A stretch of 43,631 nucleotides of DNA, taken from contig NZ_JAGQCE010000019.1 in the NCBI RefSeq assembly GCF_024345995.1, positions 1 through 43,631 of the forward strand. Direction: 5' to 3'. Each line of letters begins with the position of its first letter. The stretch's first letter is position 1. A model generated the notes under the pieces. That model was not told the origin of the DNA. It ran no database searches and was given only the letters and a program-made list of their open reading frames with translations. The position numbers were made by a program, and so were the translations under genes. Below are positions 3,900 to 10,853 of this stretch, one piece after another. The stretch comes from Synechococcus sp. Cruz-7E5 (GTDB lineage: Bacteria > Cyanobacteriota > Cyanobacteriia > PCC-6307 > Cyanobiaceae).

Positions 3900-5947
3900 C
3901 ACTTGTCCTTGTTCAGCTGGTCGGTCACCCTGCGGGTTGCCTGGGGAACCGAACGCAAGGCCCGCTGCAGACTGAAGGGATCTGCCAGGAGGGCGCCGCT
4001 CACATCGGCGAGGGCGTTGAGCACAGGCTCCTGATGCCCACGGGTCGCCGCGGTGGCCACGGCATGGGCGCGCCAGGGATTCCAGCCGGCCAGCAGCACC
4101 ACACTGCGGTACGCCGGCGGCCAGGGGTTCGCTGGCTCCAGGGTCTGCAACCTGCTGAACCACTGATCTGCCTGGAAGGGGCGGTTGCGCAGCACGGCCA
4201 GTAATGCCAGCGCCCAGAGGGCGTCCCGATCGCCGGGATCGGAGCGCAGGCGCTGCTCGGCCCAGTCGATCACCCGCCCCTGGTAGTGCCAGTGGCCATC
4301 GAGCTGGTGTTGGGGGCCGATGGCTTCGAACACAGGCGCCAGCCCGGCCGGGCCCCGCTCCAGACCGGAGGCCAGCTCAATGAACCTGCGATCGAAGCGC
4401 GTCGTGGCGGGCACGGGCTGGCGGCGGGTCCAGAGCTCAACGGGTTCGCCGTCGCTCCAGGGCCAGCGGCCCACCAGCCGGAAGCGGGAGTCCTGGCGGA
4501 TCGCACTGGCCAGCTTCCGTGAGGCTTCCCGTCGCATGCCTGCCTCGCCGGTGGTGAGCAGGACCCACTCCGCCTGATCCAGCACCAGCTCGCGCTCCCT
4601 GGGCTGCCGGCCGAGCTGCCGGGCCACGATCTGCCCCCCCCGGGCCCGCCCGAAAACCGTGGCGGTGTGCTCGTTGAGCTCGGCGGCATTGGGGAGCATC
4701 ACCAGGGTGCGGGGCTGATCACCCACCTGCTGGCGCATGGTGTCCATCACGTCTGGCAGGGGTGAGCGGGGTTGCCAGCGGATTTCGCCGGCCTGGGCTG
4801 TCACCGCGCTGCCGGCACTGGCCGCCAGCCCTGCGGCCAGGGCAGCCCAGCTGGCGCGTCTCCAGCCCTGCCTGAGCAAGGCCTGCCCCAGCTGCCACCA
4901 GCCCCAGCTCAGGAGCAGCACCAGCAGGGGCAGCACCGGGGTGATGTAGCGGGGATCCTTGTTGGGGCTGAGGGTGGTGAACAGCCAGCCACTGAGACCG
5001 CAGCCGATCAACCAGCGCCAGCCCCAGCCGCCCTGAGTCCGGTCCGTCCCATCGGCGGGCTGCGGCTGCGGGCAGTCCCGGCGCCATGGCCAGGCGGCGT
5101 GCAGGGCCAACAGCGTGCCTGCCAGGGCTGGCACGCTGTTGGCCAGTCCCAGCTGCTGGGGCCAGAGCCTGGGGTACCAGAGCAGGCTGGCCAGGCTGAA
5201 CGCTGGCGGGTCACCCTCCTGGGCGGCCGACTCAAGCACCGCCCGGTTGGTGCCGCCGATCGTGGTTATCCAGTTGTGCTGCAGCCAGGGGAGCACGAGG
5301 GTGAGCACCAGCGCCAGGGCGGCCAGCGCCTGCCAGCGCCGCCGGGCTCGCCCCAGCCCCCGCAGAGCCACCCACAGGGCCGGGGGGAGCAGCACCAGCA
5401 AAGCGCTCTGTTTCACCAGCACGGCCGCCGCCAGCGCCAGGGCCGCGACGGCGGCCTGGTGCCAGCGCCCCCCCCTGGGGTCGGGCGACGCCCAGCGCCC
5501 CAGCAGCCAAAGCGCCAGCACGCTGGTGGCGGCGAGTGGCAGATCGAGGGTGAAATCCAGCCGCAGGCTGAGCAGGGCCGGGGTGGTGGTTGTCAGGGCG
5601 GCCGCCAGAAGGCCGAAACCCGGCGAAACCAGTTGGCGGCCCCAACAGGCCACGCTCACCAGCAGCAGTCCCTGCCAGAGCGCCAGGGCCGCGCTGGCCT
5701 GATCGGGGCTGTCGCCCGATAGAGCGATCACCGAGCCATTCACCAGGCTCGCCAGCGGCGGCACCTTTGGGGAGAGATCGAGCAGACCCTGCCAGCCCGG
5801 CCAGGCTCCACCGGGAAGCAGGCCGAGGGCGCGGCCATGGTCCACGGCGCTGTTGAGGTAGTCGGCCTGATCCCAGGCCGGCAACCGCTGGTCCAGCTGC
5901 AACCAGAGCTGGTCGGCCAGGCTGCCAGCCAGCCAGATGGCGGCCAC
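3899..5947 (-). CDS. Membrane glycosyltransferase, GT-C/PMT type, with long C-terminal domain
   Basis: A 682-residue protein. Near the N-terminus RLPAWDQADYLNSAVDHGR places an Asp in the first periplasmic loop, as in GT-C dolichyl/undecaprenyl-phosphate sugar transferases. Hydrophobic helices run to about residue 380, with SPNKDPRYITPVLPLLVLL near 310-330. The last roughly 300 residues are soluble and partly TPR-like. The start is GTG 5947; there is no ATG or other GTG in frame before an upstream TGA. The first helix may begin slightly upstream, so a non-standard start is possible. It leads the three-gene minus-strand cluster and is divergent from the first porin across 186 bases in which I see no clear promoter. 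Confidence 0.82.
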   Translation of the reverse strand: MAAIWLAGSLADQLWLQLDQRLPAWDQADYLNSAVDHGRALGLLPGGAWPGWQGLLDLSPKVPPLASLVNGSVIALSGDSPDQASAALALWQGLLLVSVACWGRQLVSPGFGLLAAALTTTTPALLSLRLDFTLDLPLAATSVLALWLLGRWASPDPRGGRWHQAAVAALALAAAVLVKQSALLVLLPPALWVALRGLGRARRRWQALAALALVLTLVLPWLQHNWITTIGGTNRAVLESAAQEGDPPAFSLASLLWYPRLWPQQLGLANSVPALAGTLLALHAAWPWRRDCPQPQPADGTDRTQGGWGWRWLIGCGLSGWLFTTLSPNKDPRYITPVLPLLVLLLSWGWWQLGQALLRQGWRRASWAALAAGLAASAGSAVTAQAGEIRWQPRSPLPDVMDTMRQQVGDQPRTLVMLPNAAELNEHTATVFGRARGGQIVARQLGRQPRERELVLDQAEWVLLTTGEAGMRREASRKLASAIRQDSRFRLVGRWPWSDGEPVELWTRRQPVPATTRFDRRFIELASGLERGPAGLAPVFEAIGPQHQLDGHWHYQGRVIDWAEQRLRSDPGDRDALWALALLAVLRNRPFQADQWFSRLQTLEPANPWPPAYRSVVLLAGWNPWRAHAVATAATRGHQEPVLNALADVSGALLADPFSLQRALRSVPQATRRVTDQLNKDK

Positions 5948-6119
5948 GGCCAGCCACCACAGCCAGGGGCGTTGGGACCGGGTGTTCAGGGCCTTGGCGG
6001 CGGTTCAGGCCACTTTGGACCAGTTGCCGTCCCTGCAGCCGTTGTGCTTTCTGTCACACCTGCACGGGCCGCCTGCTGGACTTGGGGCGATTCTTCATGG
6101 CAGGCGCATTGCGCCAACT

Positions 6120-6129
6120 TGTGTGAGGA
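6120..6129 (+). promoter_or_regulatory. Shine-Dalgarno of porin 1 with Yfr1-complementary GUGUGAGG
   Basis: TGTGTGAGGA lies 4 bases before the ATG of the first porin and contains its GAGG ribosome binding core. GTGTGAGG (6121-6128) is the exact complement of CCUCACAC, the core of the conserved single-stranded motif of the cyanobacterial sRNA Yfr1. Pairing there would block ribosome binding. In Prochlorococcus, Yfr1 is known to act on outer-membrane porin mRNAs. The ten bases 6120-6129 are also exactly complementary to 7810-7819 in the 3' UTR of the same gene. Confidence 0.7.
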
Positions 6130-6133
6130 CCCC

Positions 6134-7756
6134 ATGAAATTCTTCCGGCAATTGCTGCTGGCACCTGTCGCCCTCGGACTGATGGCCCCCGTGGCCGCCA
6201 CAGCCGGCGAAATGAACCTGGACGGCATCAACCAGTACGCCGCCTCCGAGGACCAGGTCACCAGCATCACCCAGTTTTCCGACGTGCAGCCCACCGAGTG
6301 GGCCTACCAGGCACTCTCGAACCTGATCGAGCGCTACGGCTGCGTCGCTGGCTACCCCGATGGCACCTTCCGTGGCAAGAAGCCGCTGAGCCGCTGGGAA
6401 GCCGCCGCTCTGCTCAACGCCTGCCTCGATCGGATCACCGAGGTGACCGATGAGCTGCGCCGCCTGCTCAAGGAGTTCGAGAAGGAACTCGCCATCCTGC
6501 GCGGCCGCGTCGACAACCTCGAGGCCAAGGTCGGTGAGCTGGAGGCCAACCAGTTCTCCACCACCACCAAGCTGCGTGGTGTGGCCACTTTCACCATCGG
6601 CGCCAACAGCTTCGGTGGCAGTGCCCGTGTCCTGGGTGACAACACCGGACTCCCCAACAGCCTCAACCCCACGCTGGCCGACGTCGCTGCAGCTCAGCAA
6701 GGCGCCACCGCCTTCAACTACAACCTCGACCTCTTCCTCGACACCAGCTTCACCGGTAAGGACCTGCTGCGCACCCGTCTGCGTGCCGGTAACTTCGGCT
6801 CCAGCCCCTGGGGTGCCGCAAACCCTGACAACCTGGTCGGCCTGAACGCCTTCGAGATTGCCTTTGAGGGTGCCAGTGGCGCCGATTCCGTCGAAGTCAA
6901 CCGCCTCTTCTACCAATTCCCCCTGGGAAGCAGCTTCACCGCCACGGTGGGTGCAAAGGTTCGTCAGGACGACATGCTGGCCTTCTGGCCCAGCGTGTAC
7001 CCAGCTGATACCGTCCTCGACATCTTCACCTACGGCGGCGCTCCCGGCGCTTACCCCCTGACCCTCGGCTCCGGTGGTGGCCTGTGGTGGAAGAGCGGCG
7101 GCTTCAGCATCAGTGCCAACTATGTGGCCGTCAACGGCAACGTGGGTAACCCCAACATCGGTGGCATCGGCACCGACGGTTCCGCCCAGACCGGCACCGC
7201 CCAGATCGCCTGGAACAACGAGAACTTCGGTATCGCGGCCGCCTACACCTACACCACCCCCCAGGGCGGTCTGGCTGGCCTCTACGGCGGTAACGGCACC
7301 CCCCTGGCCAACCTCGGGTATGCCCTCTCCGACAGCGTCAACTCAGTTGGCATCAGCGGTTACTGGCAGCCCTCCAACTCCGGTTGGCTCCCCTCGATCA
7401 GCACCGGCTGGGGTCTGAACGCCCACAGTTCCGACACCTTCGATCAGATCGACGGTGCCCAGACTCAGTCCTGGTACGTGGGTCTGCAGTGGTCCGACGT
7501 CTTCATCAAGGGCAATTCCTTTGGTATGGCCGTGGGTCAACCCACCTTCTTCACCAAGTCGGGTGATGGCGACATCATCGAGGCCAACGACGGCAACTAT
7601 GCCTGGGAGTGGTGGTACAAGTTCCAGGTGACCGACAACATCTCGATCACCCCAGCGCTCTTCTACCTCAGCGTGCCCCTTGGTCAGCTGCAGAAGAACA
7701 GCAGCGACACCTTCGACAACTTCGGTGGCCTGGTCAAGACCACCTTCAAGTTCTGA
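6134..7756 (+). CDS. SLH-domain outer-membrane porin 1 (OprB/Som family)
   Basis: A 540-residue secreted protein. Residues 1-24 are a signal peptide (MKFFRQLLLAPVALGLMAPV, cleavage near ATAG). Residues about 45-100 form an SLH domain (FSDVQPTEWAYQALSNLIER, YPDGTFRGKKPLSRWEAAAL) that binds peptidoglycan-linked polymer in the periplasm. Residues 103-138 are a heptad-rich coiled coil. From about 145 a beta-barrel of alternating polar and hydrophobic strands ends in the terminal Phe (KTTFKF) needed for outer-membrane assembly. This is the Som/cyanobacterial OprB porin plan, a major passive channel for small solutes and ions. The open frame extends upstream to 5837, but ATG 6134 has a proper RBS and signal peptide. 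A close paralogue follows at 8104. Confidence 0.95.
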   Translation: MKFFRQLLLAPVALGLMAPVAATAGEMNLDGINQYAASEDQVTSITQFSDVQPTEWAYQALSNLIERYGCVAGYPDGTFRGKKPLSRWEAAALLNACLDRITEVTDELRRLLKEFEKELAILRGRVDNLEAKVGELEANQFSTTTKLRGVATFTIGANSFGGSARVLGDNTGLPNSLNPTLADVAAAQQGATAFNYNLDLFLDTSFTGKDLLRTRLRAGNFGSSPWGAANPDNLVGLNAFEIAFEGASGADSVEVNRLFYQFPLGSSFTATVGAKVRQDDMLAFWPSVYPADTVLDIFTYGGAPGAYPLTLGSGGGLWWKSGGFSISANYVAVNGNVGNPNIGGIGTDGSAQTGTAQIAWNNENFGIAAAYTYTTPQGGLAGLYGGNGTPLANLGYALSDSVNSVGISGYWQPSNSGWLPSISTGWGLNAHSSDTFDQIDGAQTQSWYVGLQWSDVFIKGNSFGMAVGQPTFFTKSGDGDIIEANDGNYAWEWWYKFQVTDNISITPALFYLSVPLGQLQKNSSDTFDNFGGLVKTTFKF

Positions 7757-7795
7757 TCAATTCTGATCAGTTGATCGGTTTCTGCTGATTATCCT

Positions 7796-7834
7796 CCAGC
7801 CAGATCATCTCCTCACACACCTTGATCTGGCTGG
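7796..7834 (+). promoter_or_regulatory. 3'-UTR hairpin presenting a Yfr1-like CUCCUCACAC loop
   Basis: CCAGCCAGATCA (7796-7807) and TGATCTGGCTGG (7823-7834) form a perfect 12-bp stem. The 15-base loop TCTCCTCACACACCT contains CTCCTCACAC, the Yfr1 signature less its first A. The hairpin starts 39 bases after the porin 1 stop and precedes the terminator at 7880. A perfect 12-bp stem presenting this motif is unlikely by chance. The loop could pair with the porin 1 RBS over 10 bases (7810-7819 with 6120-6129) and with the porin 2 RBS over 8. It may act in cis, be released as a 3'-UTR-derived sRNA, or stabilise the 3' end; these roles are inference. Confidence 0.65.
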
Positions 7835-7879
7835 TCCCTAGTTCTGAGCTAATCTGATTCTCAGCAGTACGCCCCTTTG

Positions 7880-7904
7880 GCCGTGGTTCCCACCACGGCT
7901 TTTT
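7880..7904 (+). terminator. Intrinsic terminator after porin 1
   Basis: GCCGTGGT and ACCACGGC form a perfect 8-bp stem with a TCCC loop, followed by five T. It ends the porin 1 transcript, so the two porins are probably separate transcription units. Of the 347 bases between the porins, the rest holds a small hairpin (CCCCTG CGGGA CAGGGG, near 7963-7979) and the porin 2 promoter. Confidence 0.9.
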
Positions 7905-8056
7905 GATGCGCTTTTTTGTATGGCTGCGCTTTTGAGGCCGAGGCGCTGCAGGGCTCCAAATCCCCTGCGGGACAGGGGGTTGCACATAGGTATGTGACCG
8001 TCGACACTCGGGCATGTGTTCGTGGGTGGTGGTCCTAATCCGCCTCTTCGATAAAG

Positions 8057-8062
8057 TATAAA
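8057..8062 (+). promoter_or_regulatory. -10 box of the porin 2 promoter
   Basis: TATAAA sits in an AT-rich island within GC-rich surroundings, 41 bases before the porin 2 ATG. Transcription starting near 8069 would give a leader of about 35 bases that includes the GUGUGAGG site. There is no convincing -35 box at the usual distance, which is common in picocyanobacterial promoters. Confidence 0.6.
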
Positions 8063-8088
8063 AGTGTCCTTTTGGACCATCCCTCAAT

Positions 8089-8098
8089 TGGTGTGAGG
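8089..8098 (+). promoter_or_regulatory. Shine-Dalgarno of porin 2 with Yfr1-complementary GUGUGAGG
   Basis: TGGTGTGAGG ends 5 bases before ATG 8104, the same place as in porin 1, and holds GTGTGAGG at 8091-8098. The flanking bases differ from those of porin 1 (TG before it, TT after). All ten bases are complementary to CCTCACACCA at 9849-9858 in this gene's own 3' UTR, against 8 bases for the porin 1 3'-UTR loop. Confidence 0.7.
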
Positions 8099-8103
8099 TT
8101 CCA

Positions 8104-9789
8104 ATGAAATTATTCCAGCGTCTGCTGCTGGCACCGGTCGCCCTTGGGCTGGTGGCCCCCATGGCCGCTTCGGCCGGGGATCTCGATCTCGATGGCATGA
8201 AAAAGTATGCCGCCAAGAAAGATCAGGTGACCAGCATCACCCAGTTCTCTGATGTTCAGCCCACCGAGTGGGCCTATCAGGCACTCTCGAACCTGATCGA
8301 GCGCTATGGCTGCGTCGCCGGTTATCCCGACGGCACCTTCCGCGGCAAGCAACCCCTGAGCCGCTGGGAAGCTGCTGCTCTTCTGAATGCCTGCCTTGAT
8401 CGGATCACCGAAGTGACCGACGAGCTGCGCCGCCTGCTCAAGGAGTTTGAGAAGGAACTCGCCATTCTGCGCGGCCGCGTCGACAACCTTGAGGCCAAGG
8501 TTGGTGAATTGGAGGCTACCCAGTTCTCCACCACCACCAAACTTCAGGGTCAGGCCACCTTCGTAATCGGCGCGGTCAACGCCAGTGGTGATCGCCCGGG
8601 TGCAGGCGTCTTCGGTTCTGCCCCCGAATTCGGCAGCCGCGATGCGGCTGAAAAATATAATGCTCAGTTCGGCGCCACCACTTTCAACTACGACCTTCGG
8701 CTGAATCTGCTCACAAGCTTCACCGGCAAGGATCTGCTCTACACCCGGCTGCGCACTGGCAACTTCGACAATGCATTGAGTGGCAATGGGGTGAACCTCA
8801 CAGCCCTGGATGTGGCCAGCAATGGCTTCGGCGGTTCCGACTCCATCGGAATTGATCGTCTCTACTACCGTTTCCCGGTGGGTCGCGATTTCACCTTCAT
8901 TGTTGGTCCCAAGGCCAGGAATACTGAGTCAGTCGCTGTAACCCCGTCGCTTTATGGCAGCGGGAAGGGCGATAAGATCCTTGATGTATTCCAGCTCTGG
9001 GGTGCTCCAGGTGTCTACAACAAGGCTACCGGCTCTCTGGGCGGCGTGATCTGGAAGCAGAATGTCAAGAAAGGTCAGGGCCGATTCAGCGCTTCGGCCA
9101 ACTACGTTGCTCAGCAAGGCAGTTCCGGTCAGGTCTTCGACGGAAATGACAATGTCTGCTCCAGCAGCGAAGGCGGCATCGGCACCGATTGTGCCCGTGG
9201 CAACTTCCTGGCCCAGCTGAACTACACCGCCCCCCAGTGGAACGTCTCGCTGGCCTACCGCTACGGCCAGCAAGCCACCAACTTCCGTCGTGGCACGAAT
9301 TTCGCTGCCAGCAACAGCTGGTTCCTGACCACTGGTGAATCGAACAGTGTGGCGGCTAACGCCTACTGGCAGCCCAAGGAAAGTGGCTGGCTACCCTCGA
9401 TCAGCGTGGGCTGGGGTCTCAACAGCCTCTCCGGCAACGACAACAATGCCCTGGGTATCGAATTTGTTGATCCCTACGTGACCGAGAGCCAGAGCTGGTT
9501 CGTCGGCCTGCAGTGGAGTGATCTGTTCGGCAAAGGCAATGCCGCCGGTATGGCGGTCGGTCAGCCTGTCTTCGCCACCGCCCTTTCCCGTGGTAGCAGC
9601 GACACAGGCAATACCACCCCGGCCGATGGCAACTACGTCTGGGAGTGGTGGTACAAGTTCCAGGTCACCGACAACATTGCCGTGACCCCGGCGATCTTCT
9701 ACCTGAGCCGTCCCCTGGGGCAGCTCACCGGCGAGGACAACAGCTTCAGCAACTTCGGCGGCCTCGTGCAGACCACCTTCAAGTTCTGA
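8104..9789 (+). CDS. SLH-domain outer-membrane porin 2 (OprB/Som family)
   Basis: A 561-residue paralogue of the porin at 6134 with the same plan: signal peptide (MKLFQRLLLAPVALGLVAPM), SLH domain, coiled coil, beta-barrel and final Phe (QTTFKF). From DQVTSITQ to STTTKL, about 108 residues, the two proteins differ at only two positions (K/Q and N/T), and the DNA is also nearly identical. The barrel is strongly diverged, with different loops, insertions and a few Cys (VCSSSEGGIGTDCARG). Parts of the barrel use more AT-rich codons than the first copy. This fits tandem duplication with a conserved or gene-converted periplasmic anchor and divergent channels. It has its own promoter and terminator. 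Confidence 0.95.
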   Translation: MKLFQRLLLAPVALGLVAPMAASAGDLDLDGMKKYAAKKDQVTSITQFSDVQPTEWAYQALSNLIERYGCVAGYPDGTFRGKQPLSRWEAAALLNACLDRITEVTDELRRLLKEFEKELAILRGRVDNLEAKVGELEATQFSTTTKLQGQATFVIGAVNASGDRPGAGVFGSAPEFGSRDAAEKYNAQFGATTFNYDLRLNLLTSFTGKDLLYTRLRTGNFDNALSGNGVNLTALDVASNGFGGSDSIGIDRLYYRFPVGRDFTFIVGPKARNTESVAVTPSLYGSGKGDKILDVFQLWGAPGVYNKATGSLGGVIWKQNVKKGQGRFSASANYVAQQGSSGQVFDGNDNVCSSSEGGIGTDCARGNFLAQLNYTAPQWNVSLAYRYGQQATNFRRGTNFAASNSWFLTTGESNSVAANAYWQPKESGWLPSISVGWGLNSLSGNDNNALGIEFVDPYVTESQSWFVGLQWSDLFGKGNAAGMAVGQPVFATALSRGSSDTGNTTPADGNYVWEWWYKFQVTDNIAVTPAIFYLSRPLGQLTGEDNSFSNFGGLVQTTFKF

Positions 9790-9795
9790 TCCAAC

Positions 9796-9882
9796 GGGCA
9801 CGGCCCTGGTTGCTGCTATCAGCCCAGGTCGTGTCCTCTCCTCCGGCTCCTCACACCACCGGCCCCCGTCAGGGGGCTTTTT
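9796..9882 (+). ncRNA. Yfr1-like element in the 3' UTR of porin 2
   Basis: The element begins 7 bases after the porin 2 stop. Stem-loop one pairs GGGCACG (9796-9802) with CGTGTCC (9830-9836, one G-U), and inside it CCTGG with CCAGG and GCTG with CAGC, the last closed by a CTAT loop. About 25 unpaired bases follow, containing CTCCTCACAC (9847-9856), and then a terminator hairpin with a T-run (9862-9882). Two stem-loops flanking a single-stranded CUCCUCACAC is the architecture of the sRNA Yfr1. Known Yfr1 genes are short, usually read ACUCCUCACAC and sit elsewhere (near guaB/trxA), so this may be a 3'-UTR-derived relative or a relocated Yfr1. Expression as a separate RNA is not shown by the sequence. 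Confidence 0.6.
9862..9882 (+). terminator. Intrinsic terminator after porin 2
   Basis: GCCCCC and GGGGGC pair around a GTCA loop, followed by five T. It ends the porin 2 transcript and would also form the 3' end of any RNA released from the Yfr1-like element. Confidence 0.92.
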
Positions 9883-9930
9883 CATGGCTGGAGCCCTTGT
9901 CATGATGGGTTCAGCTCCCAGCAATCCCCC

Positions 9931-10608
9931 TTGAAGGCAGCCCTGGCCAGCAGCGATTTCTATGCCGTTCTGGGCGTTCCAGCCACGGCTGCGGCAGATG
10001 AGATCAAGGCGGCGTACCGCGCTCTGGTCAAACGGCACCATCCCGATGCCGGTGGGGATGACACCGCGATCCTGGCCATCAATGCCGCCTGGGCCGTTCT
10101 TGGAGATGGCGACCGGCGTCGCACCTACGACATCAGCCGGCAACCCTCAGCCAGCAGCCGGCGGCATGGCTCCAGAGTCGCCACCCCAGCCCATCGCGGC
10201 CTCGATCGCGACGGGGCCCTGCTGGGCTGGTTGCAGCAGGTCTATGGGCCGATCGATCGTCTGCTTGCCCAGGTCATCAACCCATTCCCCGGCCAGCTTC
10301 GGGCCCTGGCTGCCGATCCTTACGACGACAGCCTGATGGAGGCGTTCTGCACCTATCTGGAGCAGAGCCGGAGCCGCATGGACAAGGTGGAGGCACTTTA
10401 TCGTTCAATCCCTTGCCCGAGCGAGGCCCGGGGGTTTGGCCTAAGCCTCTACCACTGCCTCAGCCAGGTCCAGGACGCCCTGCTGGAGCTGGAGCGCTAC
10501 ACCCTGGGCTACGTCGACAGATACTTGCACGATGGCCGCGAGATGCTGAGGGAAGCCAAGCAACGGCGCAGCCGCCTCAAGGAAGAGCGTCGAAGCCTCG
10601 ATCTCTAG
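9931..10608 (+). CDS. J-domain (DnaJ-like) protein
   Basis: A 225-residue protein starting with a J domain: DFYAVLGV at about residues 9-16, then AYRALVKRHHPDAGG with the HPD tripeptide that stimulates the DnaK/Hsp70 ATPase. There is no zinc-finger or Gly/Phe region, so it is not a full-length DnaJ. The other roughly 150 residues are helical and not recognised, ending in a basic stretch (AKQRRSRLKEERRSLDL). The start is probably TTG 9931, because no ATG or GTG lies in frame before the J domain. The likely role is a specialised DnaK co-chaperone. Its TAG overlaps the TAG of the convergent ndhO gene in a shared CTAG. Confidence 0.85.
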   Translation: MKAALASSDFYAVLGVPATAAADEIKAAYRALVKRHHPDAGGDDTAILAINAAWAVLGDGDRRRTYDISRQPSASSRRHGSRVATPAHRGLDRDGALLGWLQQVYGPIDRLLAQVINPFPGQLRALAADPYDDSLMEAFCTYLEQSRSRMDKVEALYRSIPCPSEARGFGLSLYHCLSQVQDALLELERYTLGYVDRYLHDGREMLREAKQRRSRLKEERRSLDL

Positions 10609-10853
10609 CAGGCCTCAAGCTGATCGAGCCGCAGCCATACGTCCGGCACCGGCAGGCGCCACCGCAGCTGGGCGAATTCGCCGCTGATGGCCAGCACTTC
10701 GCCTGGACCTTCAAACAAATAGTCGGGGGGAGTGGGATCGCTGGCAGCCGCTTCAAGGCTGCCCAGATAGGCATTCCTGCTGACCTTCACCAGGGAGCCT
10801 TTCTTGATGGCAGCGGCCTTGGGGGCAACGGCATCTGTTGGGGTCTGGGCCAT
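10605..10853 (-). CDS. ndhO: NAD(P)H-quinone oxidoreductase subunit O
   Basis: An 82-residue protein matching NdhO, a small peripheral subunit of the cyanobacterial thylakoid NDH-1 complex for cyclic electron flow and respiration. Recognisable features are IKKGSLVKVSRNAYLGSLEA, PPDYLFEGPGEVLAISGEFA and the ending PDVWLRLDQLE. The length fits the family, with a short Ala-rich N-terminal extension. It stands alone on this strand, convergent with the J-domain gene, and shares the CTAG stop palindrome at 10605-10608. Confidence 0.92.
   Translation of the reverse strand: MAQTPTDAVAPKAAAIKKGSLVKVSRNAYLGSLEAAASDPTPPDYLFEGPGEVLAISGEFAQLRWRLPVPDVWLRLDQLEAC

Follow-up and report, generated by a model that had tools for sequence, protein, structure and literature searches.

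Yfr1-type seed sequences in the 3' untranslated regions of porin genes of the Cyanobiaceae and their possible role in feedback on porin translation

The 3' untranslated regions (UTRs, hereafter also tails) of porin genes in the cyanobacterial family Cyanobiaceae often contain, as their conserved unit, the seed of the small RNA (sRNA) Yfr1, which is displayed either unpaired ahead of a terminator or in the loop of a covarying hairpin. We consider it somewhat probable that porin tails with this conserved Yfr1/Yfr10 seed feed back on porin translation beside Yfr1 itself, and that the tail RNA accumulates. Yfr1 is among the most conserved sRNAs of cyanobacteria, its usual place is between the genes guaB and trxA, and porins are validated targets of its action. 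The window that is considered here, i.e., the whole stretch of 43,631 nucleotides from Synechococcus sp. Cruz-7E5 that was analysed, contains two such porin genes, and the coordinates of the relevant features are summarized in Table 1.

Table 1. Porin genes, ribosome binding sites and 3' UTR elements in the window.
Feature	Position	Strand	Evidence
Porin 1, SomB-type iron uptake porin	6134..7756	+	NF033921, 314 bits; OprB and SLH domains
GTGTGAGG at porin 1 ribosome binding site, complement of Yfr1 seed	6121..6128	+	Sequence, pairing energies
Porin 1 3' UTR hairpin, 12-bp stem, 15-nt loop, Yfr10-like display	7796..7834	+	Fold, covariation, R2 match 7800-7830
Porin 1 terminator	7879..7900	+	Terminator scan
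Porin 2, SomB-type iron uptake porin	8104..9789	+	NF033921, 284 bits; OprB and SLH domains
GTGTGAGG at porin 2 ribosome binding site	8091..8098	+	Sequence, pairing energies
Long stem-loop 5' of motif	9796..9836	+	Fold; absent from seven same-genus orthologues (alignment)
Mostly unpaired linker with CTCCTCACAC at 9847-9856	9837..9861	+	Fold, motif search
Porin 2 terminator hairpin and U-run	9861..9882	+	Terminator scan (9861-9878), fold (about 9862-9877)

In the sequence of both of these genes, GTGTGAGG is found directly 5' of the start codon. The tail of porin 1, which was absent from the preliminary description of this DNA, has CTCCTCACAC at 7809-7818, within the 15-nt loop of a hairpin with a folding energy of -21.4 kcal/mol (z -6.51). 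For the tail of porin 2, the preliminary description had reported a stem-loop, an unpaired motif and a terminator with U-run, and this succession was confirmed by both the fold and the terminator scan. The region 9790-9884 folds with -42 kcal/mol (z -3.66), a stability that was equalled in 0 of 200 shuffles, and CUCCUCACAC at 9847-9856 is unpaired and enclosed in the minimum-energy fold by a weak 3-bp CGG/CCG contact. In the third porin of the Cruz-7E5 genome, both the 5' site and the 3' motif are lacking. The porin 2 of a cultured relative, Synechococcus sp. WH 5701 (L048), is 90% identical. Within the leader of porin 2 (window 8082-8098), CCTCA is present 5' of TGAGG, and their pairing could mask the ribosome binding site, while the leader of porin 1 (window 6103-6115) has the palindrome GGCGCATTGCGCC immediately 5' of the GTGTGAGG site. 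The genes 3' of porin 2, for a DnaJ-domain protein (window 9931-10608, + strand) and, on the opposite strand, for NdhO (window 10605-10853, - strand), are ordinary ones.

The preliminary description had further suggested that the porin 2 tail could be a porin-linked Yfr1 paralogue, lying directly behind a porin gene and away from guaB and trxA, and it had proposed a genome search for a second, canonical Yfr1 as well as an Rfam score for the tail. A canonical Yfr1 is indeed present elsewhere in the Cruz-7E5 genome (61 bits by Rfam), where it is flanked by a GuaB3-type IMP dehydrogenase-related gene and thioredoxin. The location given for the tail is borne out, the tail is additional to the canonical copy, and the possibility that it represents a relocated Yfr1 was rejected because of the existence of that copy. 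The tail is the second-best match in this genome to the Yfr1 model (RF01116), but its score of 20.8 bits is below the cut-off of 38 bits. Two stem-loops around an unpaired seed are seen in the porin 2 tail only and not in that of porin 1, and to this extent the layout is Yfr1-like; however, the unpaired stretch is longer than in Yfr1 and the 11-nt Yfr1 motif ACUCCUCACAC is matched at 10 of 11 positions in both tails, with a G at 9846 and a U at 7808 where the motif has A. In an alignment with seven porin 2 orthologues from the same genus, the long 5' stem-loop was missing from all of them, whereas the terminator was retained in 7/7 and CCTCACAC in 6/7, the exception (L022) having CCTCGCAC. Due to the low score and the absence of the stem-loop from these orthologues, the Yfr1 architecture was rejected as the conserved unit, and of the suggested paralogy the link to porins is retained but not the relationship by architecture. 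A separate paralogue of Yfr1 located 3' of porin 2 and transcribed from a promoter of its own, for which the order of stem-loop, unpaired seed and terminator and the rank of the Rfam match could be cited, is very improbable in view of the same score and missing stem-loop, and of a promoter scan of 5900-10000, covering sigma-70 type sites only, which yielded 0 sites vs 0.7 in shuffles.

The 10-nt motif is present in 2 copies in the window vs 0.16 expected, and two or more copies were also seen in 2 of 100 shuffles. In the 3.16-Mb genome there are six exact copies of it and three of the same word read backwards. Two of the six are the porin tails, one is Yfr1, one corresponds to the complement in Cyano-1/Yfr2, and the other two (L007 and L010), for which no Rfam match was obtained, lie within long putative ORFs of >150 aa on both strands. 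The Cyano-1/Yfr2 gene, the single match of its kind in the genome, is located on another contig and carries a perfect complement of the motif. A plasmid search produced two records with short, weak matches.

To examine the distribution of the seed, porin sequences were taken from 76 named loci and further genomes of the Cyanobiaceae, and 331 rows were reduced to 216 unique 3' UTRs by removing duplicates and those ends cut by a contig end with <110 nt of 3' sequence. Distant porins are under-sampled in this set, most of which comes from the sequences that best matched porin 2, among the matches listed. The 5' end was readable for 198 of the 216 porins, of which 158 had the 5' site and 40 did not (18 were without a readable 5' end). 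The hexamer CCTCAC was found within 100 nt of the stop codon in 94 of the 158 porins with the 5' site vs 6 of the 40 without it, and no CCTCAC was present in the 3' UTRs of the other 64 of the 158. The corresponding numbers for the longer CCTCACAC were 49/158 and 2/40 (p 4e-4, for rows that are related to each other), the 49 occurrences comparing with a mean of 1.12 and a maximum of 5 in 200 dinucleotide shuffles. Only four 8-mers, all of them of terminator type, were commoner than CCTCACAC in the 158 porins, and among all 216 3' UTRs the reverse complement of the 8-mer was present in none and the reversed 8-mer in two. In a control of 348 non-porin ORFs (at least 300 codons, selected with no gene calling, from which porins were removed by sequence pattern, not annotation), CCTCAC was present in only 14. 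An origin of the seed by chance, or from the composition of C-rich 3' UTRs, would be in keeping with the reversed hexamer CACTCC, which still occurs in 24/158 porins with the 5' site (2/40 without), and with the 8/348 non-porin ORFs that have CCTCACAC. However, this explanation is contradicted by the shuffle counts given above and by the stem covariation and the whole-genome specificity of the R2 matches that are described below, and we regard it as exceedingly improbable.

In a count of 161 porins, 78 had both the 5' site and the 3' motif, 48 had the 5' site only, 2 the 3' motif only and 22 neither (11 were without a readable 5' end). Within the genus to which the window belongs, the 3' motif was present in 16/17 porins with the 5' site and in 0/8 without it, and it was scarce in the genera g35 (2/23 porins with the 5' site) and g59 (0/5). 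Outside of g35, the association between the 5' site and the 3' motif has a p value of 2.6e-7, which applies to related rows and includes no phylogenetic correction; the co-occurrence of the two elements is also not independent, because a single paralogue accounts for most of the porins that lack the 5' site. Several porin tails (L106, L111, L096, and L084/L156) have two copies of the seed, the first in a hairpin loop and the second unpaired. Clustered, intergenic-looking copies of the seed were observed in g35 (G082:C1:1676210-1676582 and G128:C1:1409241-1409503), where several of the sampled copies are near Cyano-1/Yfr2, and in this genus standalone copies of the seed may take the place of porin tails.

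The tails display the seed in two main ways. In 23 of the 107 3' UTRs that have CCTCAC, the hexamer is situated inside a stem of at least 7 Watson-Crick pairs, in comparison to a mean of 1.48 and a maximum of 5 in 200 flank shuffles. The stem sequences of these hairpins vary widely across lineages and the loop keeps CCUCACAC. After the omission of L131 and L180 as doubtful and the merging of identical cores, 16 unique hairpins remained, in which 142 of 144 cells were paired and CCTCACAC was invariant in 16/16 loops, the selection having demanded only CCTCAC and a stem. In a model-fitted alignment of 19 distinct rows, where both the selection of the hairpins and the model fitting favour the structure, 95.1% of the cells were paired vs 54.6% in the shuffled alignment and at most 41.8% with slid partners, and the covariation score was 0.966 vs 0.235 for the shuffled rows. 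The number of pairs changed on both sides, which is nine, is not distinctive, because 78 of 500 shuffles reach this number. In the other 84 tails with CCTCAC outside such a loop, a T-run followed the motif within 60 nt in 65 cases, and a stem-loop with a folding energy of -10 kcal/mol or below preceded it in 26, including that of the window and porins from other lineages. For ten loci, eight of them from the list with a stem-loop before the motif, no match to the Rfam Yfr1 model was seen up to an E value of 5; the tails L206, L208, L210, and L227, which have Yfr1-like folds, likewise gave no Rfam Yfr1 match.

Two models of the hairpin were made, R1 on the basis of 5 selected sequences and R2 with 20 matches that were obtained from 21 selected sources, the latter comprising porin-tail hairpins only. 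In its own genome, R2 has one significant match, in the porin 1 hairpin (7800-7830, E 3.3e-7), with the next match at E 4. Matches at E ≤0.05 were found in 118 of 300 genomes of the family, and at E ≤0.005 in 13 of 242 genomes of the class, all within the same family. The surroundings were examined for the best 29 loci besides the window's own and for 65 weaker places, among the matches listed. By tblastn, 28 of the 29 best loci directly follow the end of a porin, and in the remaining one (L264) a porin-type C-terminus is present 14 nt before the match. Twelve of the 29 are from genera that contributed training sequences, and the other 17, which belong to g31, to g45 and to a single additional genome, are not from any genus to which a training locus could be traced (training row L100 carries no genus assignment). 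The 65 weaker places include 16 behind a porin by tblastn and one that repeats the L264 place. Of the 48 others, 33 can be assigned by their letters to two Prochlorococcus-type hairpins. When 20 such Prochlorococcus-type loci were searched with Rfam, Yfr10 was identified in 5 (53.7-101.6 bits) and Cyano-1/Yfr2 in 11. The fact that R2 finds Rfam Yfr10 supports a shared design of the porin tails and Yfr10, and it also means that R2 is not specific for porins below about 29 bits. Four of the weaker R2 matches (L301, L302, L303, and L306), which have no preceding porin and, in the case of L302 and L303, an altered loop, are presumably false and were set aside. In two g10 genomes, hairpins with the seed in the loop (L319, 2200-2227, - strand; L320, 2278-2305, - strand) are not behind a porin, and that of L319 gave no Rfam match. 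In the 1.7-Mb genome G025, which judging by its size and its Yfr10 is probably a Prochlorococcus, the Yfr1 seed is in the loop of the porin's own terminator (L278, 2262-2289, - strand), and this was treated as an isolated case because, among 200 genomes of that genus, only one gave a match.

In high-light Prochlorococcus, Yfr10 is located upstream of the Yfr2 gene. The hairpin at 7796-7834 and its relatives have the seed in the loop atop a stem, and in Cruz-7E5 the Cyano-1 gene is not next to it; a search of 7700-10000 with the Rfam Yfr10 model (RF02362) gave no match up to an E value of 10. The portions of PMC6778093 covered here describe Yfr10 as presenting the Yfr1 seed within the loop that caps a stem, with neither synteny nor sequence outside the motif being conserved. 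Extra copies of the motif near Yfr2 and Yfr5 in MED4 are noted in the covered part of PMC2190773, where WH5701 is among the genomes. A wider proposal, possible and yet a little on the doubtful side, is that porin 3' UTRs of this family encode Yfr1/Yfr10-type RNAs that repress the same porins, with one seed being used in the constitutive Yfr1, in the standalone Yfr10 and in the tails, and that Yfr10 and the tails may share an origin, one being derived from the other.

The mechanism that we favour would involve pairing of the tail seed with the GTGTGAGG ribosome binding site of its own and of the sister porin mRNA, which would lower porin translation and constitute an RNA feedback alongside Yfr1. 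The 3' end of the porin mRNA would probably accumulate as a short, terminator-protected RNA that acts like a further Yfr1 or Yfr10, i.e., we infer for the porin tails the release of an RNA, repression by it, and action in trans rather than in cis. As would be expected of an autoregulatory 3' UTR sRNA, the tails combine a complement of their own ribosome binding site with a terminator. The predicted pairing energies with their own ribosome binding sites are -17.9 kcal/mol for the porin 1 tail (-15.7 for the Yfr1 linker) and -22.4 kcal/mol for that of porin 2 (-19.4 for the Yfr1 linker). With partners exchanged, the porin 1 site is predicted to pair with the porin 2 linker at -18.7 kcal/mol, slightly better than with its own loop, and the porin 2 site with the porin 1 loop at -14.4 kcal/mol. 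For 94 porins, the difference between own and swapped 5'/3' partners was weak (p 0.035, with no correction for relatedness), and this comparison was set aside as evidence of co-evolution; the specificity of pairing between tails and sites is, as modelled, loose.

The main alternative is that the tail serves as a sponge, which, instead of pairing with porin 5' UTRs, binds and titrates Yfr2 (an RNA that carries GTGTGAGGAG) and frees Yfr1, with porins being affected only indirectly. It derives its appeal from the single Cyano-1/Yfr2 gene of this genome with its perfect complement, from the proximity to Cyano-1 of weaker R2 matches in other genera at 11/20 loci, and from the predicted pairing of Yfr2 with the porin 1 loop (-19.8 kcal/mol, stronger than that of the porin 1 site with the same loop) and the porin 2 tail (-20.4 kcal/mol). 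Furthermore, according to the sections of PMC6778093 covered, both Yfr1 and Yfr10 are bound by Yfr2, and the 4.7-fold repression that Yfr1 exerts on a porin 5' UTR in E. coli is relieved by Yfr2. However, a Yfr2 sponge alone makes no prediction that the 3' seed should accompany the 5' site within one gene, and we consider it rather unlikely. Unlikely to a greater degree is a purely cis-acting element, in which pairing between the 5' and 3' ends of the mRNA, or a site for an RNA-binding protein, would influence stability or translation with no released RNA or trans action. The complementary ends on one transcript and the display of the seed in several structural forms are consistent with such an element, but the same hairpin design is found in standalone RNAs, five of which are Rfam Yfr10, that by published work act in trans. 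Under the feedback reading that we prefer, porins in this family of small cyanobacteria may hold down their own synthesis through the pairing of RNAs. If this is true, a porin mRNA with both the target site and the seed that attacks it would represent a built-in feedback on outer-membrane permeability, and porin tails would be a possible evolutionary source of Yfr10.

The preliminary description regarded a porin-linked RNA of this kind as undescribed to its knowledge, and this agrees with the literature searched, most subscription papers and all supplements being outside its scope, where no report was found that locates the Yfr1 seed in the tails of porin genes. No such description is contained in the portions covered of PMC6778093, whose supplementary figures S6/S7 (Yfr10-like sRNAs) were outside this scope and could possibly include a link to porins, nor in those of PMC2518516, PMC2190773, PMC6974561, PMC4734099, PMC5069720, PMC7368042, and PMC7398697.

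The porin tails resemble Yfr1 (RF01116) in the 10-nt core CUCCUCACAC that is common to both, in the order of stem-loop, unpaired seed and terminator at 9796-9882, and in having as targets the complementary ribosome binding sites of porins. They differ from it in being located behind porins and not between guaB and trxA, and the porin 2 tail is additionally distinguished by its sub-cut-off score with 10/11 motif bases and by a 5' stem-loop that is not conserved within the genus. The unpaired stretch of this tail is about 24 nt and the element at 9796-9882 is 87 nt long, whereas for Yfr1 the covered portion of PMC2190773 gives an unpaired stretch of 16-20 nt, a length of 54-69 nt and an A before CUCCUCACAC. 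With Yfr10, the tails have in common a seed that is looped out above a stem of variable sequence, and the porin-tail model R2 picks up Rfam Yfr10; in contrast to Yfr10, the hairpin here belongs to a porin 3' UTR, there is no Rfam Yfr10 match up to an E value of 10 in 7700-10000, and the hairpin does not adjoin Yfr2 in its own genome. An sRNA derived from the 3' end of an mRNA also exists in a cyanobacterium and reportedly goes by the name ApcZ. This RNA, as presented in the part of PMC8136909 covered, comes from another gene and has another target. OppZ and CarZ of Vibrio cholerae, which are sRNAs derived from 3' UTRs and are autoregulatory, are similar to the porin tails in that, in the covered text of PMC7398697, a sequence of the 3' UTR pairs with its own transcript; they differ from them in belonging to another phylum, in that processing and repression are for the porin tails what we infer here, and in that the seed of the porin tails is common to separate, conserved sRNAs.
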